A DNA stretch of 64,000 nucleotides, from contig NZ_JACJQO010000015.1 of NCBI RefSeq assembly GCF_014696715.1, forward strand, positions 124,001-188,000. The letters are read 5' to 3'. The stretch comes from Pseudanabaena sp. FACHB-2040. Its GTDB lineage: Bacteria; Cyanobacteriota; Cyanobacteriia; Phormidesmidales; Phormidesmidaceae. The notes below the pieces were generated by a model that did no database searches, was not told where the DNA came from, and saw only the letters and a program-made list of their open reading frames with translations. This document shows, one piece after another, positions 11,478 through 63,898 of the stretch; position 1 is the first letter of the stretch, and each line of letters begins with the position of its first letter. Both the position numbers and the translations under genes were made by a program.

Positions 11478-14400
11478 ATGAACGCAGTGCAGAGAGGGGC
11501 TGTTGCTGCAGCCCTTTTTGCCGGAGGGGGAGAAATGGGAACCCTGATTGGCTCCCATGATTGGTCACAGACTCCCCTAGGTCCGGTTGAGCACTGGTCT
11601 CAGAGCTTAAAAACTGCCGTTCGGATTATGCTCACCTCCCGCCAGGCCATGTTTGTCTGGTGGGGAGAAGAGCTGATCAATCTCTACAACGATGCCTACC
11701 AAGCCATTTTGGGCGGTAAGCACCCAATTGCCCTGGGCCAACCCGCTGCCGAGGTTTGGCACGAGATTTGGGATCAAGTGGGGCCTCGAGCAGAGCTGGC
11801 CATGCGCCAAAACGAGGGCACCTATGATGAAGCGCTCCTGCTGCTTATGGAGCGTAACGGCTATCCCGAAGAGACTTACTACACCTTTTCCTATAGCCCA
11901 GTCCCCAATGAGCAGGGAGATACCGGCGGCATCATCTGTGCCAATACCGACGACACTCAGCGCATTATCGGTGAGCGCCAGCTGGCCCTGCTCAAAGAAC
12001 TCGCTGCCAGCACAGCCGATGCCCGCACCTTTGACGCTGCGTGCACCCTCAGCGCTCACTGTCTAGCCAGCAACCCCTACGACTTTCCCTTTGCAGCAAT
12101 CTATCTAGTTGATTCACAGCAGCAGGCCACCCTGGCGGGCACCTGTGGCCTTGAGCCAGGCCATCCAGTCGCACCTCAGAGTGTCTCTTTGAGCGATGAG
12201 TCTTGGCCCTTTGCGACAGTCCTCGAAACCCACAAGCCCAGCTTAATCTCAGATCTCAGCAAGCGGTTTACCGACCTCCCCACCGGAGCCTGGGACCGTC
12301 CCCCTCAGCAGGCGGTTGTTGTGCCCATCTCCCCCACTGGACAGGCGGGCAAAGCAGGCATTTTGGTGGCGGGCCTCAACCCGTTCCGACTCTTTGATGA
12401 CAACTACCAGCGGTTTCTCAATCTAGTTTCAGCCCAAATTACCGCCAGCATTGCCAATGCCCAAGCTTATGAGGAAGAGCGCCAGCGAGCCGAGGCCCTA
12501 GCAGAAATCGATCGGGCCAAAACTGTCTTCTTTAGCAACGTCAGCCACGAGTTTCGCACACCACTGACTTTAATGCTGGGGCCGTTGGAGGAAGCGTTGG
12601 CGAGCTTGGGATGGGTGGATGAGTGGGAGAGTAGAAGAGTAGATGAGCCCCCCTCTACCCATCCACCCATCCACCCCTCTACTCATCTACCCATCCACCT
12701 ATCCACTCTGAAACACCAGCTCCAGCTCACCCATCGCAACAGCCTGCGCCTGCTGAAGCTGGTCAATACCCTGCTCGATTTTTCGCGCATTGAGGCCGGA
12801 CGCATTGAGGCGACTTACGAGGCGACCGATTTGGCCAGCTTTACAGCAGAACTGGCCAGTGTGTTTCGCTCTACTGTCGAGCAGGCCAGTCTGCGGCTGG
12901 AGGTAGACTGTCCGTCGCTATCCGAGCCGGTGTATGTGGATCGGGAGATGTGGGAGAAGATTATACTCAACCTGCTCTCTAATGCCTTCAAATTTACGCT
13001 TGCAGGCAAGATTCGGGTAAGTTTACATTGTGTGGAAAGAAGCGCGGGGAGCCAGATAGACGCGGAGCTACGGAGACACGGGAACGCGGGGAACCGAGCC
13101 GACGTGGGGGCAGCATTTCCCGATCTCTCTGCGTCTTCCCCACCTTGTGTAGTTTTAGAAGTCAGCGACACGGGCATCGGCATTCCCACCGAAGAAATTC
13201 CCCATTTGTTTGAGCGGTTTCACCGGGTCAAAGGGGCCCAGGGCCGCAGCTTCGAGGGGTCGGGCATTGGCCTTTCGCTGATTCAGGAGTTGGTGAAGCT
13301 GCACGGGGGCAGTCTGCAGGTCGAGAGTGTATTAGGTCAAGGCAGCACATTCACGGTATCGATCCCCATGGGGACTGCTCACTTGCCTCAGGAGCGGGTA
13401 AGCCAGGTGCGATCGCAAACCGTCATCGGCTCAGGGGCCATTCCCTATGTAGAAGAAGCTCTGCGCTGGCTGCCCGAATCTGCTCCAGATCCGTTAGAAG
13501 AGCAAGCCACCAATCTCCTTCCCACTTCGGCCTCCTGCCTCCCGACTCCTGCCTCTCATCGCCTCTCTGCCCGCATTCTCCTGGCTGACGACAATGCCGA
13601 CATGCGAGACTACGTGGGGCGTTTGCTGAAGCAGCAGTATGAGGTAGCGGCAGTTGCTGATGGCAAGGCCGCTCTAGCCACAATTGAGCAGCAGCGCCCC
13701 GACCTAGTGCTGCTCGATGTGATGATGCCAGAGGTAGACGGGTTTGGCGTCCTGCGACAGCTGCGAACCAACCCTAACACTTGCGACATCCCGATTATTC
13801 TGCTGTCGGCTCGGGCCGGAGAAGAGTCGCGCATGGAGGGCCTAGAAGCAGGCGCAGACGACTACCTGGTGAAGCCCTTTTCAGCCCGAGAACTGCTGGC
13901 GCGGGTTGAGGCCAGCCTCAAGCTAGCGCAGCTGCGGCGAGAAGCCACCCAGCGAGAACAAACCCTTAGACTAGCTGCAGAAACTGCGCAGCAAAGCGTA
14001 GAAAGCGTTTTATCAAGCATCAACGACGGATTTTTCATCCTCGACCGCAGCTGGCGCTTTACCTACTGCAACAGCCGCAACGCTGAGATTATTGGCCTTG
14101 CCCAAGAACAGGTGCTGGGCCAAGATGTTTGGGAGCTGTTTCCTGACGTGGTGGGCACTGAGGTCTATCGGCAATTCCAGCAGACAATGACTACCCAAAC
14201 AGCAGTGCAGTTTGAGTATTTTTACCCCACCTGGGAGCGCTGGTTTGAATACCGGCTCTACCCCTCTCCGGAGATGCTGACCGTCTTTGTCGCTGATGTG
14301 ACCGAGCGTAAACGTGCAGAAACTGCTCTGCAAGCCGCCGAAGAACGGCTGCGGGTGGCACTGCAAAATGCGCCTATCGCCGTCTTCAACCAAGATCAAA

Positions 14401-16871
14401 ACCTGCGCTACACCTGGATTTACAATCCTTCCCTTGGCTACCAAGCAGACGAAGTGCTTGGCAAACAGGACGCTGATCTGGTCTCTGCCGAGCAAGCAGC
14501 CGAGCTAACGCAGATCAAGCGCCAGGTCTTAAGGACAGGCGTCGGTACACGAGCAAACGTGCAGATCGCCCAAAATGGTCGAGATTCTTTCTTCGATTTG
14601 ACAGTAGAACCCCTATGGGGAGCTGACAACACCGTAGTTGGCGTGACCTGCGCCGCCATCGATATCTCAGAACTCAAGCAGACTGAGCTGGCCCTGCGCG
14701 AAAGCGAAGCCTTTAACCGGCAGGTGCTCGATAGCAGCAACGACTGTATCAAGGTTTTAGACCTGAAAGGGTACCTTCTATATATGGCCCCAGGGGGGCA
14801 GGCGCAGCTCAGTATTGCCGACATCAAGCCGTTCGTCAATTGTTCATGGATCGAGTTTTGGCAAGGGGTAGATCGGCAGGCGGCACTGATTGCGATGGAT
14901 GCTGCCAGAGCAGGGGGCGTGGGCACCTTTCAAGGCCACCGCCCTAGCGAAACCGGCGAGCCAAAATGGTGGGACAACAAGATAACAGCAATTCACGGAG
15001 CCACCGGACAGGTCGAACAGTTTTTGTGCATCTCTCGAGACATTACCGAGCGCAGGCTAGCCGAACTAGAGCGAGAGCAAACGCTGGCCCGTGAGCGCCA
15101 TTATGGCAACCAGCTACAGGGACTGACCACCGCCGCTCTAGCGATTAACTCTGCCCTGTCTGTGGAGGATGTCCTGCAGCTGATCACCGATCAGGCAGCA
15201 GCTATTGTAGGGTCTCACCAGTCCGTGACTAGCATGACTGTAGATCAAAATTGGGCCCAGGCTATTACCGCTGTTTACCTGTCCGATAAGTACGCACAGT
15301 GGCGAGACTACAATGAGAAATCTGATGGCTCCGGCATCTATGCCTGTGTCTGCCACCTCAACCGCCCCATGCGAATGACCCAGGCCGAACTCGAAGCCCA
15401 TCCCCGCTGGCGCAGCTTTGGTAAAGAGGGCCAAAATCACCCGCCCATGCGAGGTTGGCTGGCCGCTCCCCTGGTAGCCCGCGATGGCCACAACATGGGA
15501 TTGATCCAGCTTTCAGACAAACATGAGGGCGAATTTACCGCAGCAGACGAAGCAATTTTGGTGCAGTTGGCCCAAATGGCCTCGGTCGCCGTTGAGAATG
15601 CCCGGCTGTACGAAGCCGAGCAGCAGGCCCGCTCAGCCGCCGAAGCAGCCCGAGAAGAGGCGCAGGCCGCTAATAGGGTGAAAGATGAGTTTTTGGCAGT
15701 GCTTTCCCACGAACTCAGGTCGCCCCTCAACCCCATCCTCGGCTGGTCAAAACTCCTGCAGTCTAACCGACTTAGCCCGATTCAAACAGCCCAAGCCATC
15801 ACCGTCATTGAGCGCAATGCCAGACTCCAGTCTGAACTGATTGAGGACCTGCTCGATGTCTCTCGCATTCTGCAGGGCAAACTCAGGCTCACAATCAGCC
15901 CAGTCAGCCTAAGCTCGACCATCAGTGCTGCCATTGAAACAGTGCGGCTAGCAGCCGAGGCGAAGGGCATTGAAGTGAGGAGGCAGGAGGCAGAAGGCGG
16001 GAGTTCTCCGGTGCTTCACGCTCTCCGTCCGTTTTCCTCCCCCGTCACAGTTGCAGGCGACGCTACTCGCCTGCAGCAGGTGTTCTGGAATCTACTTTCT
16101 AATGCCGTCAAGTTCACCCCCGCAGGGGGTCGGGTTGAGGTGCGCCTAGAGTCTGTTGACCACCATGCTCAAGTCACGGTCAGCGACACTGGAGAGGGCA
16201 TCTCTCCAGCTGCTTTACCTAGGATATTTGACTATTTTCGACAGGCCGACAGCACAACGACGCGTAAGTTTGGCGGCTTAGGGCTGGGACTAGCCATTGT
16301 GCGGCATCTGGTCGAGCTACATGGGGGCACCATTTGGGCCGAGAGCCCAGGTGAGGGCCAAGGCGCGACTTTTACGCTGAGATTGCCGCTGTTTCGAGGC
16401 GGGAGTGCAGAAGCAGGGGAGGCATGCGATCGCAACTCCCCCTCTACTTCCCCTATCGCGCCCCTAGCTGGCAGGCAACTTCTAGTCGTTGACGACGAAA
16501 TCGATAGCCGCGAGTTTGTGGTCTTTTTGCTAGAGCAGGCCGGGGCCGAGGTTCGCTCAGCCGCAAATGCAGGCGAAGCCCTAGCAGCCCTGAGGCAGAC
16601 CCCCCCGGATGTGCTAGTCAGCGACATCGGTATGCCCGATTTAGATGGGTACATGCTGATCCGCCAGGTCAGAGCCCTGCAGCCAGAGCAGGGCGGGCAA
16701 ACCCCAGCAGTGGCCCTAACTGCTTACGCTGGAGAATTTGACCAGCAGCAGGCGATCCGGGCTGGATTTCAGCTGCACGTTTCTAAACCCGTGGAGCCGG
16801 ATGCATTGGTGAAGGCTGTTTGTAGCTTGATCAAGGGAGGGGACGCGGGGCGGGGAGATGGGGGAGCGTGA
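11478..16871 (+). CDS. Hybrid histidine kinase with two kinase cores and two receiver domains
   Basis: 1797 residues, no membrane segment. Domains in order: PAS-like 20-165; GAF 185-338; HisKA 346-455 with His357 (NVSHEFRTP); HATPase 500-640 (SDTGIGIP); receiver 697-815 with Asp747 (LLDVMMPE); three PAS regions about 840-1200; GAF 1215-1385; second HisKA with His1411 (LSHELRSP); second HATPase about 1525-1640 (SDTGEGISPAALP); final receiver 1665-1785 with Asp1716 (SDIGMPD). Both cores retain their phosphoacceptor and ATP-lid motifs, so both could be active. The protein looks like two hybrid kinases joined end to end. Several loops are encoded by simple repeats (see 12600-12708 and 13040-13140). 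It reaches the 3' end in a G-rich repeat that encodes the last residues. Ligands unknown. Confidence 0.93.
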   Translation: MNAVQRGAVAAALFAGGGEMGTLIGSHDWSQTPLGPVEHWSQSLKTAVRIMLTSRQAMFVWWGEELINLYNDAYQAILGGKHPIALGQPAAEVWHEIWDQVGPRAELAMRQNEGTYDEALLLLMERNGYPEETYYTFSYSPVPNEQGDTGGIICANTDDTQRIIGERQLALLKELAASTADARTFDAACTLSAHCLASNPYDFPFAAIYLVDSQQQATLAGTCGLEPGHPVAPQSVSLSDESWPFATVLETHKPSLISDLSKRFTDLPTGAWDRPPQQAVVVPISPTGQAGKAGILVAGLNPFRLFDDNYQRFLNLVSAQITASIANAQAYEEERQRAEALAEIDRAKTVFFSNVSHEFRTPLTLMLGPLEEALASLGWVDEWESRRVDEPPSTHPPIHPSTHLPIHLSTLKHQLQLTHRNSLRLLKLVNTLLDFSRIEAGRIEATYEATDLASFTAELASVFRSTVEQASLRLEVDCPSLSEPVYVDREMWEKIILNLLSNAFKFTLAGKIRVSLHCVERSAGSQIDAELRRHGNAGNRADVGAAFPDLSASSPPCVVLEVSDTGIGIPTEEIPHLFERFHRVKGAQGRSFEGSGIGLSLIQELVKLHGGSLQVESVLGQGSTFTVSIPMGTAHLPQERVSQVRSQTVIGSGAIPYVEEALRWLPESAPDPLEEQATNLLPTSASCLPTPASHRLSARILLADDNADMRDYVGRLLKQQYEVAAVADGKAALATIEQQRPDLVLLDVMMPEVDGFGVLRQLRTNPNTCDIPIILLSARAGEESRMEGLEAGADDYLVKPFSARELLARVEASLKLAQLRREATQREQTLRLAAETAQQSVESVLSSINDGFFILDRSWRFTYCNSRNAEIIGLAQEQVLGQDVWELFPDVVGTEVYRQFQQTMTTQTAVQFEYFYPTWERWFEYRLYPSPEMLTVFVADVTERKRAETALQAAEERLRVALQNAPIAVFNQDQNLRYTWIYNPSLGYQADEVLGKQDADLVSAEQAAELTQIKRQVLRTGVGTRANVQIAQNGRDSFFDLTVEPLWGADNTVVGVTCAAIDISELKQTELALRESEAFNRQVLDSSNDCIKVLDLKGYLLYMAPGGQAQLSIADIKPFVNCSWIEFWQGVDRQAALIAMDAARAGGVGTFQGHRPSETGEPKWWDNKITAIHGATGQVEQFLCISRDITERRLAELEREQTLARERHYGNQLQGLTTAALAINSALSVEDVLQLITDQAAAIVGSHQSVTSMTVDQNWAQAITAVYLSDKYAQWRDYNEKSDGSGIYACVCHLNRPMRMTQAELEAHPRWRSFGKEGQNHPPMRGWLAAPLVARDGHNMGLIQLSDKHEGEFTAADEAILVQLAQMASVAVENARLYEAEQQARSAAEAAREEAQAANRVKDEFLAVLSHELRSPLNPILGWSKLLQSNRLSPIQTAQAITVIERNARLQSELIEDLLDVSRILQGKLRLTISPVSLSSTISAAIETVRLAAEAKGIEVRRQEAEGGSSPVLHALRPFSSPVTVAGDATRLQQVFWNLLSNAVKFTPAGGRVEVRLESVDHHAQVTVSDTGEGISPAALPRIFDYFRQADSTTTRKFGGLGLGLAIVRHLVELHGGTIWAESPGEGQGATFTLRLPLFRGGSAEAGEACDRNSPSTSPIAPLAGRQLLVVDDEIDSREFVVFLLEQAGAEVRSAANAGEALAALRQTPPDVLVSDIGMPDLDGYMLIRQVRALQPEQGGQTPAVALTAYAGEFDQQQAIRAGFQLHVSKPVEPDALVKAVCSLIKGGDAGRGDGGA
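12600..12708. repeat. In-frame repeat insertion inside the first HisKA domain
   Basis: A G-rich block (GGGTGGATGAGTGGGAGAG) is followed by its C-rich complement type (CCCATCCACCCATCCACC and variants), together a long imperfect inverted repeat. It encodes about residues 374-410 of the kinase, rich in His/Pro/Ser/Thr, between the two HisKA helices. The reading frame is kept. Confidence 0.75.
13035..13145. repeat. In-frame minisatellite insertion inside the first HATPase domain
   Basis: The blocks GCGGGGA, GACGCGGAG and GGAGACACGGGAACGCGGGG match the intergenic minisatellite at 8403-8487. They encode roughly residues 520-556, between the strand ending SLHC and the ATP-binding motif VVLEVSDTGIGIP. 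The frame is maintained. Confidence 0.7.
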
Positions 16872-53583: not shown

Positions 53584-54162
53584 ATGCCTCGACCTCGTTC
53601 TTTTGACTCAGATGCTGTGACCGATAAGCTATGTGAGTATTTTTGGGAACATGGGTACAGCGCCGTGTCTCTGGATGATCTAGCGCGGCAGTTAGGGATA
53701 AAGCGCGGCAGCTTGTTCAATGCCTTTGGCTCTAAGGAGGCGCTGCTCTATGCTGCGTTTGAGCGGTATGGGCGAACATTTCAAGGCAATTACAAAACCG
53801 CTCATCGGGGCAGGAAGGCGATTGTGGAGTATTTTGATAATGCGATCGCACTTGCGACCAATCAAGGAATGGGACGAGGCTGCTTCTTAGTGAATTTGCT
53901 CATGTCTCAAGAAATTCCAACTCCTGAGCTTCAGCAAGCCCTCGATCAAGATGTTGCGTTTATCAGAGAATTTTTTACCGACCATTTGCATCAGGCTCAG
54001 CAGGAGCAGGATCTGCTTCCTACCGTATCTATTGCCGCCGGGGTTGATGCGCTGTTTGGAGCAATGGTCGGGTTATTTGCCCTAGCTCGAATGAGAGCAA
54101 GCCCTGTCATGGTAGAAGAATTTGTTCACAACAATCTAAGGGGATTGTTTACTGCGTATTAG
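53584..54162 (+). CDS. TetR-family transcriptional regulator
   Basis: 192 residues. N-terminal helix-turn-helix: LCEYFWEHGYSAVSLDDLAR, then QLGIKRGSLFNAFGSKEALL. The C-terminal ligand domain is helical (AIALATNQGMGRGCFLVNLL, ... IAAGVDALFGAMVGLFALAR), with a Cys in the GCF motif. Probably controls itself and the ogt/glycosylase/GNAT genes through the direct repeats (inference). Confidence 0.92.
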   Translation: MPRPRSFDSDAVTDKLCEYFWEHGYSAVSLDDLARQLGIKRGSLFNAFGSKEALLYAAFERYGRTFQGNYKTAHRGRKAIVEYFDNAIALATNQGMGRGCFLVNLLMSQEIPTPELQQALDQDVAFIREFFTDHLHQAQQEQDLLPTVSIAAGVDALFGAMVGLFALARMRASPVMVEEFVHNNLRGLFTAY

Positions 54163-55648: not shown

Positions 55649-56365
55649 ATGGTGCAGGCGATTCGTCCACTGATTGAGGCCCAATATGCAGAGCAGGTGC
55701 AGGCCTTTGAGTACTCCCCCTGGTTTCAGCGCTTAGAGCAGGGTCAGGCCTCCCTGCAGGAGTACGATGCCTTTATTTTTAACCTTTGCCAGACTCACCT
55801 GAAGAGTCCGCAAATTTTGGCCTTTCTCTACGCAGTGGCACCGCCGCAGGCCGCGCCCCAGATCAAACACAATTTACTGGAAGAACTGGGGCTAGATGAG
55901 GTGGCCATCTGCCACCCTGATCTACTGTATCAACTGGCAACGGCGGCGGGGTTTGATCGCGATCGCCAAACTCGTCTGGCCGAGGCGGCGCAGGCTCAAA
56001 TTCGTCAGCTCTGCACCGATCCGCTGCTGTTTGGCACGATGCAGGAACTGGGGCTGTCAGTGCTCTTGGAGGTGACCTGCTTTGAGTGGATGCTCTCTCG
56101 CCTAGCCAGTCGCATTGGCCATGCTCTAGCGGCCTATCGCGGTCTGCCGCCCGCGAGTCTAGCCTGGTTTGATCACCATTCTGAAGTCGATATTCGCCAC
56201 GCCGAGGAAGGTTTAGACAGCGTTGAGCAATACCTGGCCTATTACGAGATCGAGGCCGAGGATCTAGAGACCATTCTCGACATTACCTTCCGCGAGAACA
56301 TTTTTATCAAGCGATACTTCGCCGACCTGCCCCCTCTTGCCGAATCTTCCCATGAGAATCGTTGA
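55649..56365 (+). CDS. HDO-type (haem-oxygenase-like diiron) oxidase
   Basis: 238 residues, helical bundle of the iron-containing redox family. Metal-ligand context: HNLLEELGLDE (Glu), FEWMLSR (Glu) and HHSEVDIRHAEEGLD (His, Asp, His, Glu). Relatives such as UndA and BesC use diiron and oxygen to cleave or decarboxylate fatty acids or amino acids. First gene of the operon; its end overlaps the next gene by 14 bp. Substrate unknown. Confidence 0.87.
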   Translation: MVQAIRPLIEAQYAEQVQAFEYSPWFQRLEQGQASLQEYDAFIFNLCQTHLKSPQILAFLYAVAPPQAAPQIKHNLLEELGLDEVAICHPDLLYQLATAAGFDRDRQTRLAEAAQAQIRQLCTDPLLFGTMQELGLSVLLEVTCFEWMLSRLASRIGHALAAYRGLPPASLAWFDHHSEVDIRHAEEGLDSVEQYLAYYEIEAEDLETILDITFRENIFIKRYFADLPPLAESSHENR

Positions 56366-57518
56366 CGCTACCCTGTTTGCCCTGCAAATTCCTTTTGTCG
56401 AAGCCTTTGCCCACAGTGTGCGATCGCGCAGCTACTCAGATTCCATCGTGGTGCGGCTGCGGGCCGAAGACGGCACCGTCGGCTATGGTGAGGCAGTGGC
56501 GCGGCCTTACGTCACCGGGGAGACGGTGGACGGCTGTTTGCAGTTTATGGAACGCACCCTATGGCCTGCGGTTCAAGCCACCGACTATCTCCGGTGGACA
56601 GGACAGAATCCGATCGCCTGGCTAGCGTCGTTGGCCCTACCTGCCGATGCTGATAGTTTGGCAACCCCTGGCGTAGTGGCCTGGCATGGGGCTCGCTGTG
56701 GCTTTGAGCTAGCCCTGGTCGATTGTTTGCTGAAATCTGCCGGGGTTTCGCTGGGGGACCTCTTGCCGCCTCGGCACCCGGTCACCTACAGCGGCGTGAT
56801 CACGGCCAGCAGCGTTGAGGGAGCGGTGAAACATGCCAGGCGATTCAAGCAATTTGGCCTGCCCCACGTGAAGGTGAAGATCACGGGGGAGGCGGATCGG
56901 GAACGGCTGGCGGCGATTCGCGCGGTGGTGGGGCCGCAGGTCTCGTTGCGGGTAGATGGCAATGGGGCCTACTCGGTGGAAAGTGCGATCGCTACCTGTG
57001 AGGCCCTAGCAGAATTTCAGATCGACAGCGCCGAGCAAATGATTTCGCGCGGTCATCCTCAGGATTTAGCAACGGTTCAGGCGAACTCAACTATTCCCCA
57101 AATGGCCGATGAGTCGCTGATTACCCTGGCGGATGCCGAGGCGCTAATTGCGGCCAGGGCCTGCAAAAGCTTTAATCTGCGGCTGTCAAAATGTGGGGGA
57201 CTAGGGCCAACCTTGGCCATTGCTGAGCTGGCTCAAGCCACTGGCATTCAGGTGCAGGTGGGCTGCCAGGTGGGCGAGACGGCAATTCTCTCCGCCGCAG
57301 GGCGGCACTTGGCGGCCTATTTGCCGGAGATCAGCTTTTGCGAAGGCTCCTACGGCAGTCTGCTATTGCGGGAAGATCTCAGTCGTCGCCCCATTCACTT
57401 TGGCCATCAAGGTTTGGCTAAGCCTTTGAAGGGGCCAGGGTTGGGGGTAGAGATTCAAGATGCCCTGCTGGAAAAATACGCCCAGCAAATAATTTCACTG
57501 ACAACTAAGGCGGTGTGA
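56352..57518 (+). CDS. Enolase-superfamily enzyme, dipeptide-epimerase/muconate-cycloisomerase type
   Basis: 388 residues from ATG 56352 (MRIVDATLFALQIPFVEAFA). Capping domain then barrel with acid/base Lys in HVKVKI, metal-site Asp in RVDGNGAYS, Glu in SAEQMIS, Asp/Glu in MADESLITL and second Lys in LRLSKCGGLG. This set fits dipeptide epimerases and o-succinylbenzoate-synthase-like enzymes; in context, amino-acid or acyl-amino-acid racemisation is likely. Confidence 0.88.
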   Translation: MRIVDATLFALQIPFVEAFAHSVRSRSYSDSIVVRLRAEDGTVGYGEAVARPYVTGETVDGCLQFMERTLWPAVQATDYLRWTGQNPIAWLASLALPADADSLATPGVVAWHGARCGFELALVDCLLKSAGVSLGDLLPPRHPVTYSGVITASSVEGAVKHARRFKQFGLPHVKVKITGEADRERLAAIRAVVGPQVSLRVDGNGAYSVESAIATCEALAEFQIDSAEQMISRGHPQDLATVQANSTIPQMADESLITLADAEALIAARACKSFNLRLSKCGGLGPTLAIAELAQATGIQVQVGCQVGETAILSAAGRHLAAYLPEISFCEGSYGSLLLREDLSRRPIHFGHQGLAKPLKGPGLGVEIQDALLEKYAQQIISLTTKAV

Positions 57519-57519
57519 G

Positions 57520-59172
57520 ATGATAGCCGGACTGTATACCCTCGGCCTCCACTGGCAGGGTCGAGCCCTGAAACAACGGCTAGAGGCTGCCACCCAAGAG
57601 CCTGAGCTGGCCCAACAGCAGCTATTGCGCCAGTTGCTCAGCCGCCATGGAGACACTCAGTTTGGCCGCGAGCATCACTTTGATCAGATTCGCACCCCGC
57701 TAGACTACCGCCACGCAGTGCCCATCCGCGACTACGAAGGCTTTCGGCCCTATGTGCAGCAGATGATGGCAGGCCAGGAAAAGATTTTGGTGAATGAGCC
57801 CGTGCGGATGTTTACCTTGACCAGCGGCACCACTGGGCAGCCCAAATATATTCCCGTCACCGCTGAGGTAGAGCGGGGCGGGTCACAGCTAATGCGGCAG
57901 TGGCTCTACCGAATTTTGCAAGATCACCCAACATTTTTGAGCCGGGCGGTGGTGGGGATTGTCAGCCCAGCGATCGAAGGCTATACCTCAGGCGGCATTC
58001 CCTACGGCAGCCTGTCTGGGCGAATCTACCAGCAGATCCCAGCTTTGATTCGTCGCACCTACGCCATCCCTTACCAGGTGTTTGAGATTCCCGACTACGA
58101 TCGCCGCTACTGGGCCATTGCCCGCTATGCCCTGGCGCGGCAGGTGTCCTTCCTGGGTACGCCCAACCCCAGTACCCTCAAGCGGCTGGCCACGGTGATG
58201 ACTCACCAGGCAGAATCGCTGATCCAGGCCATTTACGACGGCACCGATGGCGAGGGCATCTCGGCCCAGCGGCCCCAGCCTAAGCGAGCCAAACAGCTAG
58301 AACAAATCTTCAATACCACGGGGGCATTACGGCCTCGGGACTGCTGGCCCCATCTGGATCTGCTGGGCTGCTGGACGGGCGGTTCGGTGGGGGCACAGGC
58401 CCGACAACTCACTGGTGACTACGGTCCACTGCCGATTCGAGATCTAGGCTATCTGGCCAGTGAAGCCCGAATCACCCTGCCCTACCAGAACAATACTCCC
58501 GCTGGCCTGTTAGATCTGACCCTGAATGTCTATGAATTCATTCCAGAAGCCAGCGCTGACCAGGTCGACCCGCCGATTTTGCTCAGCCATGAGCTAGAAC
58601 GGGGGCAGTGCTACCAGATTCTGTTGACCACTCCCGGTGGTCTCTACCGCTATCACATCAATGACGTGGTGGAGGTGACGGACTTCTATCACCGATCACC
58701 CGTCATTGCCTTTTTGCGTAAGGGCCGGGACATGAGTAACCTGACCGGGGAGAAGCTACATGTGAACCATGTGCTGGCTGCGATCGCAACCCTACAACGC
58801 CAGTTTCACCTGACGGTGGCCTCCTACCGGCTGGTGGCAAATGCCCAAAACCTGCGCTACGAGCTGTACTGGGAAATGTCAGATGTCCCCAGCCACGACT
58901 GGATCGAGCCATTGTTGTCAGCCCTGGATACGGCCTTGGCCCAAAACAACGTTGAATACGGTCAAAAACGTGCCTCTCGACGGTTAAACGCCCCCTGTCT
59001 CCATCGCATGAAACCGGGCTGGGCTGAGGCTACTCAACGCTGGGCCATAGCTCATGGTCAGCGGGAGGTACAGTACAAATGGCAGGTTCTCACCCAGCAG
59101 CCCCTACCGCTGGATACCGAAGCGATTGTGCAAACCTATGAGCTGACGCTGCCCTATGCCCACCCCCACTGA
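57520..59172 (+). CDS. GH3-family acyl-amido synthetase
   Basis: 550 residues. ATP-binding motif FTLTSGTTGQPKYIPVT (near 99-115), then the GH3 signatures LDLLGCWTGGSVGAQA, LGYLASEARITLPY, LYRYHINDVVEVTDF and NLTGEKLHVNHV. GH3 enzymes adenylate a carboxylic acid and join it to an amine, usually an amino acid. Starts one base after the epimerase stop, so tightly coupled. Confidence 0.92.
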   Translation: MIAGLYTLGLHWQGRALKQRLEAATQEPELAQQQLLRQLLSRHGDTQFGREHHFDQIRTPLDYRHAVPIRDYEGFRPYVQQMMAGQEKILVNEPVRMFTLTSGTTGQPKYIPVTAEVERGGSQLMRQWLYRILQDHPTFLSRAVVGIVSPAIEGYTSGGIPYGSLSGRIYQQIPALIRRTYAIPYQVFEIPDYDRRYWAIARYALARQVSFLGTPNPSTLKRLATVMTHQAESLIQAIYDGTDGEGISAQRPQPKRAKQLEQIFNTTGALRPRDCWPHLDLLGCWTGGSVGAQARQLTGDYGPLPIRDLGYLASEARITLPYQNNTPAGLLDLTLNVYEFIPEASADQVDPPILLSHELERGQCYQILLTTPGGLYRYHINDVVEVTDFYHRSPVIAFLRKGRDMSNLTGEKLHVNHVLAAIATLQRQFHLTVASYRLVANAQNLRYELYWEMSDVPSHDWIEPLLSALDTALAQNNVEYGQKRASRRLNAPCLHRMKPGWAEATQRWAIAHGQREVQYKWQVLTQQPLPLDTEAIVQTYELTLPYAHPH

Positions 59173-59632
59173 TGGTCTGCGGCTGCATCGGCTGGGGCCG
59201 AGTCGGCATCCGGTGCCCTGGCTGTGGGTGCTGACCCTGCTATTTTTGCTGCGGGTGCTGGGGCAGGTGCTGGTGGCCTGCTGTCAGGTGCCCTTTTTGC
59301 CCCCCATGGCCCACTGGTATTCAGGCCTGCTTCCCTACCCGCTGCTGTTGCCCAGCCAGCTGCTGATTCTGGGGCTCCAAGTCAAAATCAATCGTGACCT
59401 AGCCCAGGAACGGGGCTGGTTTCAACAGCCTCGCCCCCGCCTCGGTCAAGGCCTACAGTACGTGAGCTACGGCTACGCCCTGGTGATGGTGATTCGCTAC
59501 GGCATCACCATGAGTCTTTATCCAGAGCGTCGCTGGCTTGGGGAGGGCACTATTCCCATTGTGTTTCACTGGCTGCTGGCTGCCTATCTCTGGCTCTGGG
59601 GCTGGGGCCATCGTCGGGGGAGGCCGCTATGA
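59156..59632 (+). CDS. Integral membrane protein, 158 aa
   Basis: Four membrane helices (WLWVLTLLFLLRVLGQVLVA, LLPYPLLLPSQLLILGL, ... WLLAAYLWLWGWG). No family recognised. Overlaps GH3 by 17 bp and the next gene by four (ATGA). Confidence 0.75.
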   Translation: MPTPTDGLRLHRLGPSRHPVPWLWVLTLLFLLRVLGQVLVACCQVPFLPPMAHWYSGLLPYPLLLPSQLLILGLQVKINRDLAQERGWFQQPRPRLGQGLQYVSYGYALVMVIRYGITMSLYPERRWLGEGTIPIVFHWLLAAYLWLWGWGHRRGRPL

Positions 59633-61443
59633 GAGTAGGGATTTTTCGCCATCGCGCTCGGCTGTTCTCTCACAAGCGGCTCTGGCTGTGGCTGCTGGCG
59701 GGGCTGACTGCGCTGCTGCTGTTAGTTATTGGTCGGGGCAGTGCGATCGCAGCTGCCTGGTTGGGCCACCAGTTAGACTATCCCCCCGCCAGCTATGGCG
59801 TCCGTTTAGAACGCCGGGTGAGCGTGACCGCCCCCGATGGCACGGCGCTGGTTGCCGATGTCTACCATCCCCGTACGGCCGCAGCTACACCCACCATTCT
59901 GGTCCGCATTCCCTACTCCAAACAGATTAAACACATCCTGTTTGCCCGCACTGTTGGCCATCTTTGGGCCAGTCACGGTTACACCACGGTGATCCAGGGA
60001 ACCCGAGGCCGCTATGAGTCGGGCGGCAGCTACGATCCGCCCTTTTTGAACGAGGCCCAAGATGGGCGGGCCACGCTGCAGTGGATCGCCCAGCAGCCCT
60101 GGTACGACGGGCATATCGGCATGTGGGGCGGCTCCTACTTTGGCTATACCCAGTGGGTGCTGGCCGACCAGGTTGATCCGGGGTTGTCAGCCCTGATGCC
60201 GCAGATTTGCAGCACCGACTTCTATCGCATGTTCTACCCCGGCGGCGCGTTTTCCCTAGAGAGCGCCCTTTACTGGGCGACCCTCAGCTACGGCCCACGG
60301 GATATTCCCCTCCCCCAAGAGCAGCTACAGCAGGGCTATGAGGGGTGGCCCCTGCTAGAGGCCGATGACCGAGCGGTGCAGAATATTCCGTTTTTTGATA
60401 CCTGGGTCAGCCACACCGATCGCGATCGCTACTGGCAAGCGGTCGATGGCAGCGATCGCAACCGCCAGCTCCAGGCTCCGGCCCTGCTGATGGCCGGCTG
60501 GTACGATCCGTTTTTACCCACCCAACTGGCAGACTTTCAACAGATTCGCGCCAACGCGGCCCCCCCGGTCGCCGAGGCCACCCGCCTGATCATTGGGCCT
60601 TGGACCCACGCCAACACCGTCACCTTCCCCGACGGTAGCCGCCCCCGCAACTACCGCTTCGAAAGTATTGGTCCCAGCCTGCCGTGGTTTGATCAGCAGC
60701 TCAAGGGCGCTGCTGAGACGGCCCAGCCCAGCCCGGTGCTGATCTACGTCATGGGCGCTAACACCTGGCGCGGAGAATCGACCTGGCCCCTGCCCCGCAC
60801 CCGCTACACGCCCTACTACCTGCACAGCAACGGCCAGGCGAATACTCTCAACGGCGACGGCCTTCTCAGTCTGGAGATTCCCGGGGAGGAAGAAGCCAGC
60901 GATCGCTTTGTTTACAACCCGCAAAACCCAGTGCCCAGTGCTGGGGGAACCATGCTGGGGCCAAACGCAGGCATTCAGCCTCAAACTATGATTGAAGAGC
61001 GGGAGGATGTGCTGGTCTATACCACCCCGCCCCTGACCGACGCGATCGAAGTGACGGGGCCAGTGCAACTGCGGCTCCAGGTTTCGACCACGGCTCCCCA
61101 TAGCGATTTCACAGCCAAACTGGTGGATGTGTATCCCGATGGAACGGGTTATAACGTCTCCGAAGGGATTCTTCGGCGGGGTTATAGCAATAACATTCTA
61201 GAGGAAACTCAGGTACCCACCGAAATCACGATCGATCTCTGGCCCACCAGCCAAGTCTTCTTCCCAGGCCATCGCATTCGCCTAGAAGTTTCTAGCAGCA
61301 GCTATCCCCGCTTCGACCGCAATCCCAATACGGGCCGCGATATTCCCACCGAGCGCCAGCCAGTCGCCGCGACCCAGACTGTCTACCACCACACCGCTGC
61401 TGTCTCCCAGCTGATTTTGCCGATTATTCCAGCGGGAGGATAG
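59629..61443 (+). CDS. CocE/NonD-family membrane-anchored hydrolase
   Basis: 604 residues. One N-terminal membrane helix (about 22-47), then an alpha/beta-hydrolase domain: VSVTAPDGTALVADVYHPRT, nucleophile Ser in MWGGSYFGYTQW, Asp in GWYDPF and His in GPWTHANT, then the C-terminal jelly-roll (VTGPVQLRLQVSTTAPHSDF). The family hydrolyses esters or amides including acyl-amino acids. Faces outside the membrane if the helix is an uncleaved signal. Last operon gene. Confidence 0.92.
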   Translation: MRVGIFRHRARLFSHKRLWLWLLAGLTALLLLVIGRGSAIAAAWLGHQLDYPPASYGVRLERRVSVTAPDGTALVADVYHPRTAAATPTILVRIPYSKQIKHILFARTVGHLWASHGYTTVIQGTRGRYESGGSYDPPFLNEAQDGRATLQWIAQQPWYDGHIGMWGGSYFGYTQWVLADQVDPGLSALMPQICSTDFYRMFYPGGAFSLESALYWATLSYGPRDIPLPQEQLQQGYEGWPLLEADDRAVQNIPFFDTWVSHTDRDRYWQAVDGSDRNRQLQAPALLMAGWYDPFLPTQLADFQQIRANAAPPVAEATRLIIGPWTHANTVTFPDGSRPRNYRFESIGPSLPWFDQQLKGAAETAQPSPVLIYVMGANTWRGESTWPLPRTRYTPYYLHSNGQANTLNGDGLLSLEIPGEEEASDRFVYNPQNPVPSAGGTMLGPNAGIQPQTMIEEREDVLVYTTPPLTDAIEVTGPVQLRLQVSTTAPHSDFTAKLVDVYPDGTGYNVSEGILRRGYSNNILEETQVPTEITIDLWPTSQVFFPGHRIRLEVSSSSYPRFDRNPNTGRDIPTERQPVAATQTVYHHTAAVSQLILPIIPAGG

Positions 61444-62134: not shown

Positions 62135-63898
62135 TCAAGAAGCAGTTTCTGAAACTTTGACAAATTCTAGAACGCTTTCGCCCCGGTGTTTGTAGTTGTG
62201 CTTAATGTCGATCTGGTGCTTTTGGTGATGGGCATGGATCTCGTCAGCTCGATCTGTTAATGCCTGCTCAATCTTCTTCTGAGCCTTGGTAAAGGACTTG
62301 AGGACGTTGATGGAGATAGCCCACTTATCGTCATAGCGATTTGCAGCATCGTTGTAGGCCATGATCGCGTCGATAGCTGCATTGATCAGCTGCTCCGATT
62401 CCCCCCGCCTAGAGCGCGCGTGAGGCTTCTTAGATTCCTGAGTAGTTTTGGGAGAAGTTTTGGGGGTGGCAGGTGTAGATCTGGGTGCCGCAGGGGTAGC
62501 CCCATTTTGAGAAGCCCCGACAGACTGCTGCTGCCCAACCTGGAGGGCGATGAGCTGCTGCATGACATCGATCAGCCCGCCAATTTTGTCTTCTAGGGTG
62601 GAAGTGATCGGTTGCTCGAGTGCTGCACTGGCTTGTTCACGAGCTTCCGCAATCGGTGGTGTTATGGCTTCCTCTCGCTCCGCTTCAGGTTCTGCGGGTT
62701 GCTGCGCTAGCCCTCGAAGTTGACCCTGAATCCATCTTACAAGCTGGTTCATTTGCTCATGCTGGTTGCCCTCAAAGCCCAGCACCTCAAAGATCGATTC
62801 TAGATGGGCCTTGTCTTCCCTCGTGACTTGGATGCGGGTCGTCTTCATTGATTTTTTGGGTAATGGTTGACTAAGGGTTCCAGTTTGCGGCTGTTGGGCC
62901 TGGTGCTTGGCATAGGACTGGGAGAATACTTCAATGGGTGTGATGCCTCCATGTCCTAACTTGATGCCCTTGCGCTTGCCGCCGTACTGAGCAATAACGC
63001 TATCGGCAATTTCGTAGTCGCTGTAGTGCCGACTGGTCGCCAGAGAACGTCTCAGCTCTGGGTTCTCTACCTCCATCACGGCATAGTGGCCCTGGATAGC
63101 TGCCTTAAACTCTGTCTCGTTGACGTTAGGCGGGCAGTACCAAAAGGTTGCAATGGTGGCATAAACCGCTCTGAACAGGTGTGTGTAGAGGTTGTCTTTG
63201 CCCTCTCGTTTAGGCACCAGGGTGGTGAAGTTGCGATCGCACGCCACCTCCACTGCCCGACCGAAGCGTTGGCTCACCTCAGCGACCTCTAGCCCCACAG
63301 CTTCGGGCAATTCATGGCGGACTTTGGCGAGGGCTTCAATCACCCGTTCAGCCGTAGTCAGCGTGGGAATCTCAAAAGAGAGTTGCTGCAGTTCTCCCCG
63401 GCGCTTCAATGCTCCAGTGAAGGTAACGCTCCACTGTGATTTCTTCTCAAACTTAGCCGTGCTGAGGATTTCGCTAGAGCGTCTTCCGGTCAGTACAGCT
63501 AGGCCTGCACAGATATCGGCCCAGTCGGGCTTCTCCAGCAGCCGCACTGCCTGAGCCACAATGCTGTCGGGCCTGACGATGAACTGAACGCTTTCATTGC
63601 GATCTGCGACTGACTTCTGCTTATCCAGATTTAGCGCTGTCCACTGGTCGGTTGTGAAATTGATGTGCTCAAGGCTGAAGTGGTCTGGGCTGAGGTAGGT
63701 CTTGAGGTAGCGGCGAGTAATATCCATCGGCCCCTGCTGCTGACGTAGGGTTGCTAAACCTCGGCTGCTCCACCAGTCCTGCAGCTCCCGATTGATGGCC
63801 TGTGCTTCGGCTCTGCCGTCTGAGGTGTCTGGAAGGGCTTTGATGCGAGGTATCCACGTCTCAATCAGGGGTTTCTCTAGCCAAGCTCTACGTCCCAT
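62135..63898 (-). CDS. Protelomerase (telomere resolvase)-family protein
   Basis: 587 residues. The N-terminal 110 residues are helical. A tyrosine-recombinase-like core follows: ICAGLAVLTGRRSSEIL with Arg139/140, a beta-hairpin with FTGALKRRGEL (Lys165), YTHLFRAVYATIA with His240 and Arg243, and TSRHYSDYEIAD with His291 and candidate nucleophile Tyr292 or Tyr295. This order matches telomere resolvases such as TelK and TelA, which break and rejoin a palindromic site into covalently closed hairpins. A Gln/Ala/Pro-rich linker (about 390-495) leads to a C-terminal helical domain. Cyanobacterial members are known by sequence but their function is not established to my knowledge. Confidence 0.82.
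   Translation of the reverse strand: MGRRAWLEKPLIETWIPRIKALPDTSDGRAEAQAINRELQDWWSSRGLATLRQQQGPMDITRRYLKTYLSPDHFSLEHINFTTDQWTALNLDKQKSVADRNESVQFIVRPDSIVAQAVRLLEKPDWADICAGLAVLTGRRSSEILSTAKFEKKSQWSVTFTGALKRRGELQQLSFEIPTLTTAERVIEALAKVRHELPEAVGLEVAEVSQRFGRAVEVACDRNFTTLVPKREGKDNLYTHLFRAVYATIATFWYCPPNVNETEFKAAIQGHYAVMEVENPELRRSLATSRHYSDYEIADSVIAQYGGKRKGIKLGHGGITPIEVFSQSYAKHQAQQPQTGTLSQPLPKKSMKTTRIQVTREDKAHLESIFEVLGFEGNQHEQMNQLVRWIQGQLRGLAQQPAEPEAEREEAITPPIAEAREQASAALEQPITSTLEDKIGGLIDVMQQLIALQVGQQQSVGASQNGATPAAPRSTPATPKTSPKTTQESKKPHARSRRGESEQLINAAIDAIMAYNDAANRYDDKWAISINVLKSFTKAQKKIEQALTDRADEIHAHHQKHQIDIKHNYKHRGESVLEFVKVSETAS

Follow-up and report, generated by a model that had tools for sequence, protein, structure and literature searches.

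A conserved five-gene module linking an enolase-superfamily protein to a GH3 amide synthetase-like enzyme in cyanobacteria and other bacteria

A five-gene operon in Pseudanabaena sp. FACHB-2040

The stretch of DNA analysed here (the window: 64,000 nucleotides, positions 124,001 to 188,000 of contig NZ_JACJQO010000015.1 of Pseudanabaena sp. FACHB-2040) belongs to contig 15 of a cyanobacterial genome of 6.3 Mb and carries an operon of five genes, termed HDO, ENO, GH3, MEM and COC (Table 1), which constitute a single inherited metabolic module. The genes are read from one strand and are separated by overlaps of 14, 17 and 4 bp and one 1-bp gap; these positions, as well as the assignment of four of the genes to the HDO, enolase, GH3 and CocE families, had been given in a first-pass annotation made from the sequence alone and are upheld by profile matches, with MEM remaining outside every family. 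The ATG start of ENO is common to its homologues, and a longer reading from a TTG at 56337 is possible. Scans for promoters and terminators at the locus gave no signal exceeding that of shuffled sequences. A TetR gene (53584-54162) 1.5 kb upstream of the operon was left outside the unit.

Table 1. Coordinates and assignments of the operon genes and of two further genes of the genome
Feature	Position	Strand	Description
HDO	55649-56365	+	PF14518, E 1.1e-17
ENO	56352-57518	+	Enolase superfamily, muconate-lactonizing subgroup; 388 aa from ATG 56352; MR_MLE_C, E 5.3e-45
GH3	57520-59172	+	Acyl acid amido synthetase-like, 550 aa; PF03321, PF23571, PF23572 (GH3 N/M/C)
MEM	59156-59632	+	Membrane protein, 158 aa, four long helices, outside known families
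COC	59629-61443	+	CocE/NonD (S15) hydrolase, 604 aa; PF02129 and PF08530; TIGR00976
Second enolase-superfamily protein (L121)	contig 7, 4733-5785	-	DLD motif; DgcA, 178.8 bits; independent of the operon
ResT/TelK telomere-resolvase catalytic domain protein	62135-63898	-	587 aa; E 5.8e-34; single copy

Conservation of gene order and distribution

The complete order recurs in 11 further cyanobacterial loci, seven from the Leptolyngbya/Nodosilinea group (L052-L057, L059) and four from the Calothrix group (L063-L066), and one more locus of the former group (L058) retains the first four genes up to the end of its contig. The flanks differ from locus to locus while the five-gene order stays constant, which argues that the adjacency is more than chance. 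In one of the Calothrix loci (L064, Calothrix sp. PCC 7716) CocE is split into two reading frames (13253-14579), possibly a sign of decay.

A scan of bacterial genomes for ENO returned 42 loci; it relied on a pair of peptide patterns (IPFVEAF-like and PYVTGETV) and thus selects this ENO subfamily, and several of the loci come from metagenome assemblies whose assignment may be wrong. HDO-ENO-GH3 without an adjoining CocE is found in Phormidium, Halomicronema, Omnitrophota, Pyrinomonadaceae (Acidobacteriota) and a deltaproteobacterial-type phylum, as well as in Rokubacteria, where MEM is present, and searching 386 Cyanobacteriota genomes for GH3 added one distant relative, a tanganyikabacterium (G001) with these three genes in the window order. 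The five genes are a mobile unit, present whole or in part in at least nine bacterial phyla. Its distribution is sporadic, given that ENO is carried by 7 of 77 nearest-relative genomes; in other genome groups the carriers number 5/95, 5/347, 6/284 and 2/321 (about 0.6-5%). The first-pass annotation had tied its pathway reading to conserved co-occurrence, and had taken an order unique to this genome, or genes common in unrelated contexts, as refuting it; the reading withstands this, for the five-family order proved to be shared with distant cyanobacteria and its core with other phyla, and ENO, MEM and the GH3 clade that goes with ENO scarcely occur in other contexts.

A plasmid or viral origin was considered and rejected: HDO and MEM are unmatched in plasmids, where the search returned remote enolases only, and HDO relatives are absent from viral contigs. 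Near-identical ENO neighbourhoods in metagenome-assembled genomes labelled Gemmatimonadota and Latescibacterota (L068-L070, L087) suggest transfer or a binning error; these loci lack HDO and carry a HAD-family phosphatase upstream of ENO.

Co-inheritance of the core genes

Across the 22 loci with all three genes, the pairwise tree distances of HDO, ENO and GH3 are correlated with r of 0.978-0.985, a level reached by none of 2000 permutations, and the correlation is 0.96-0.97 among distant pairs only. GH3 is present in 27 of the 29 ENO-bearing genomes, and any GH3, as detected with this query, in 52 of 386 cyanobacterial genomes. A 56-row GH3 tree, whose deep nodes carry support of 86-92 and whose root is not fixed, places the common cyanobacterial GH3 in a separate clade (support 100) and groups the ENO-unlinked GH3s of ENO genomes (planctomycetes, G453 and Streptomyces) near the linked ones. 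No ENO-family member occurs in 13 genomes that have only the common cyanobacterial GH3 (best score 142 bits, against at least 340 for members). The pairing is imperfect: four non-photosynthetic relatives (G004, G018, G050, G053) have a GH3 near the ENO type and lack ENO. The constant core of the module consists of ENO and GH3, HDO is replaceable, and we hold it to be nearly certain that the five genes form one functional unit.

The component proteins

ENO belongs to the same subgroup as the L-Ala-D/L-Glu epimerases and the racemase 2P88 and has the same lysine pair and metal-binding residues: K174xK176, D202, E228, D253 and K280 are invariant in 35 of 35 sequences, which gives every ENO the two catalytic lysines, for which the two-lysine mechanism of YkfB serves as reference, and the Asp/Glu/Asp metal ligands of dipeptide epimerases. 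Its nearest solved proteins are 3JVA and 2P88, the latter of which, the nearest, we take to be an N-succinyl-arginine racemase; the likeness to N-acyl amino acid racemases comes solely from this sequence neighbour. The first-pass annotation had allowed for a dipeptide epimerase, an identity now discarded, as the DxD motif of the eighth strand is found in none of the 35 sequences, whereas the Bacillus subtilis epimerase has DFD and the other enolase of the same genome DLD. ENO is instead a separate subfamily with signatures unlike those of the dipeptide epimerases and 2P88, namely invariant H21, R26, RxYVTGE, N-x-R and VGE; R51, Y53, R277 and E331 are likewise invariant. In dipeptide epimerases the DxD motif binds the free alpha-ammonium group, so its absence from ENO would fit an N-acylated substrate. 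Neither is ENO the ordinary epimerase of this genome, which has a separate, DLD-bearing epimerase-like gene on contig 7 (Table 1). Among NCBIfam profiles the best match of ENO is the muconate cycloisomerase family, at 135.8 bits and under the cut-off.

The GH3 of the window is the single GH3 gene of its genome and has all three domains of the family, with the nucleotide-binding motifs TSGTTGQPK, LASE and GLYRYHIND kept in the alignment.

For HDO, an AlphaFold model (pLDDT 92) finds CADD as its best fold in the PDB (E 1.7e-6), followed by HrmI, PqqC and UndA. Six putative ligands (E79, H89, E146, H177, D181 and H184) are invariant in 23 of 23 sequences, the choice between E78 and E79 being unsettled, and they correspond to the three-His/three-carboxylate (3H/3C) ligand set described for HDOs (PMC13108848). 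By its heme-oxygenase-like fold and its ligand set HDO is thus a member of the superfamily that includes CADD/PabS, UndA, HrmI and PqqC-like proteins; it forms a subfamily of its own, at most about 20% identical to the solved members, and its likeness to the p-aminobenzoate synthases (CADD/PabS) is one of fold only.

In other phyla the place of HDO appears to be taken by fatty-acid-hydroxylase (FAH) proteins, which are fused to GH3 in L033, L090 and L152 and adjoin GH3 or ENO in L144, L145 and L150. HDO occurs at 29 of 57 loci, FAH at 6 and both at none, a count that covers ENO genomes and is confounded by lineage and contig ends, and that suggests that HDO and FAH occupy one slot in the module. 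The best NCBIfam profile for the FAH domains of L090 and L033 is OlsE, of the fatty acid hydroxylase superfamily, with scores of 169.7 and 182.1 bits under a cut-off of 475. In ornithine lipid, OlsE adds a hydroxyl group to the amino-acid headgroup (PMC3972451). The window locus itself has no OlsE-like protein.

MEM has no match in Pfam or the PDB, and a fold search with its AlphaFold model (pLDDT 82) also found none. Among the 386 Cyanobacteriota genomes it occurs in two, that of the window and the tanganyikabacterium, both with HDO-ENO-GH3. In the latter MEM and CocE are neighbours, some 23 kb away from HDO-ENO-GH3 on one contig, and are 48% and 47% identical to the Calothrix copies; two distant lineages therefore each possess all five families, even though in one of them the cluster is split. 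MEM is tied to CocE by adjacency, by overlap and by fusion, an acidobacterium (L145) having a single MEM::CocE frame followed by FAH, GH3 and ENO; in Rokubacteria and gammaproteobacteria MEM lies beside ENO-GH3 with no adjoining CocE. COC itself is a CocE/NonD member (TIGR00976, 405.3 bits, cut-off 66.3) that aligns with cocaine esterase at 360 bits with the Ser/Asp/His motifs kept. It thus has the full-length S15/PepX_C architecture and catalytic motifs of cocaine esterase CocE and the alpha-amino acid ester hydrolases, but differs from them in its association with MEM, its linkage to ENO-GH3 and its membrane anchoring, predicted by hydropathy from a hydrophobic N-terminal segment (residues 17-35).

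Recurrent partners

Several further families lie near the module elsewhere: ICMT-type methyltransferases (L067, L074, L092, L148, L149, L113), LCM methyltransferases (L071, L033), P450s (L068-L070, L087, L074, L149, L113) and MMPL/HAE3 exporters (L074, L113). A hydrophobic acid as the product would be consistent with the methyltransferases and the MMPL exporters. One cluster (L113; G454 contig 51, 2225-8118) joins HDO to a P450, an MMPL protein and an ICMT protein while the ENO-GH3 pair of the same genome lies apart (L075), indicating that the module can be both split and extended. A GH3-S33 hydrolase-ENO arrangement is found in Kutzneria (L088, L093), amid FAA hydrolase, MFS exporter and SDR genes, possibly an actinobacterial natural-product version, with variants in planctomycetes and a deltaproteobacterial-type genome.

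Relation to the OlsH/OlsI system

The closest known system is the OlsH/OlsI ornithine-lipid pathway of planctomycetes, in which an enzyme of the GH3 family couples a fatty acid with an amino acid, demonstrating that a bacterial GH3 can make N-acyl amino acids; its operon includes a methyltransferase and an alpha/beta-hydrolase-fold protein and, unlike that of the window, is reported without ENO, HDO or MEM (PMC12493201). The window GH3 is not an OlsH: it scores 96.7 bits against the OlsH profile (NF052613, cut-off 620), for which a true OlsH used as positive control (L114) scores 887.8 bits, and a planctomycete (G456) has such a true OlsH (887.8 bits) and an ENO-type GH3 side by side. Neither is the pathway that of OlsH/OlsI, as OlsI (NF052614) is unmatched and the operon hydrolase is of the CocE/S15 type. 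The relatives of GH3 that make N-acyl amino acids are OlsH and the plant GH3s.

The roles of most bacterial GH3s are open (PMC12493201), and a review of aminolipids mentions no GH3, racemases or cyanobacteria (PMC11631085). The first-pass annotation knew of no described system with this gene set, and a search of the open-access literature, with subscription journals outside its reach, agrees; unrelated matches aside, no paper linked GH3 to CocE in cyanobacteria, to heme-oxygenase-like enzymes or to the enolase superfamily. For a GH3 in the rubiginone cluster, a link to ENO could not be established.

A proposed pathway and its alternatives

In the pathway that we favour, at a probability of roughly one half, GH3 would use ATP to activate a free carboxylic acid, probably a fatty one, and couple it with an amino acid to yield an aminolipid-like N-acyl amino acid; ENO would remove and re-add the alpha proton of the N-acylated amino acid, inverting its configuration; HDO, or the OlsE-like FAH in other phyla, would oxygenate the molecule or its precursor; and MEM with the membrane-anchored CocE would act jointly as an extracytoplasmic hydrolase, splitting an ester or amide of the product either at the membrane or beyond it. 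The first-pass annotation had proposed that an amide is made, stereochemically edited and externally cleaved, and this outline is supported by the families present and by the neighbours at other loci (the OlsE-like hydroxylase, the carboxyl methyltransferases and the MMPL exporter), while epimerisation, oxidation and cleavage stay conditional.

Several points weigh against this pathway. Its chemistry is read from sequence, structure models and gene context, from which we infer the substrates, the order of the steps, the direction of the ENO reaction, the location of cleavage and the role of MEM. ENO could catalyse a cycloisomerisation or an elimination instead of an epimerisation. The substrate of HDO is not readable from its sequence, and the protein of nearest fold, CADD, makes p-aminobenzoate by consuming a tyrosine of its own chain. 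Many HDO-ENO-GH3 loci have no CocE and MEM next to them, so that cleavage is not an obligatory linked step, and the OlsE-like and OlsH similarities lie far under the family cut-offs (169.7 against 475 and 96.7 against 620).

A somewhat unlikely alternative is that the product is a small-molecule natural product or signal and not a membrane lipid, GH3 conjugating an aromatic or short acid as plant GH3s do with hormones, ENO and HDO tailoring a non-proteinogenic building block beforehand, and CocE degrading the product or releasing its active form outside the cell, as from a prodrug. The sporadic distribution described above is typical of specialised metabolism, HDOs act mostly in natural-product pathways, in Kutzneria the surrounding genes encode an FAA hydrolase, an MFS exporter and an SDR protein, and the neighbouring P450s resemble those of terpene and ribosomally synthesised and post-translationally modified peptide (RiPP) pathways. 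The operon, however, has no nonribosomal peptide synthetase, polyketide synthase or carrier protein, and the OlsE-like fusion, like the MMPL/HpnN-like exporter, speaks for lipids.

It is rather unlikely that ENO is no epimerase and, as a cycloisomerase, lyase or dehydratase, supplies the acid for GH3 to activate, much as o-succinylbenzoate synthase precedes the activation of its product. The catalytic residues are common to all these reactions and the best profile is that of muconate cycloisomerase, but a racemase and dipeptide epimerases are the closest proteins of solved structure, and no obvious precursor-making gene recurs beside ENO. More improbable still is a catabolic or scavenging operon acting on external N-acyl amino acids or esters, in which CocE would cleave the substrate, ENO convert D to L and GH3 detoxify the acids: a predicted exported hydrolase and a racemase-like enzyme would suit it, but GH3 is an ATP-consuming, synthetic enzyme, ENO-GH3 is the constant core while CocE is the most dispensable part, and there is no uptake transporter. 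Chance adjacency of unrelated housekeeping genes deserves virtually no credence, for although each named family is common in bacteria on its own, the cross-phylum order, the trees, the co-occurrence, the permuted arrangements and the fusions refute it.

Bacterial GH3s are widespread, and OlsH is the sole one for which we found a described role; a whole GH3 clade is now tied to a racemase-like partner, with testable substrates. The favoured pathway, if true, would add a stereochemical editing step to the synthesis of N-acyl amino acids or aminolipids and would at once give roles to three orphan groups: an HDO subfamily, an enolase subfamily and a membrane family. It is enticing to speculate further, albeit doubtfully, that the module specifies an undescribed but widely shared class of extracellular N-acyl D-amino acids (aminolipids, signals or prodrugs), built by ENO and GH3, oxygenated by either of two exchangeable iron oxygenases (HDO or the OlsE-like protein), and activated or removed at the membrane by a complex of MEM and CocE.

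A further observation in the window

Downstream of the operon the window carries a gene for a ResT/TelK-type protein (Table 1). No long palindrome was found within 11 kb around this gene, and a protein of the same type is also present in Synechococcus elongatus, used as control.

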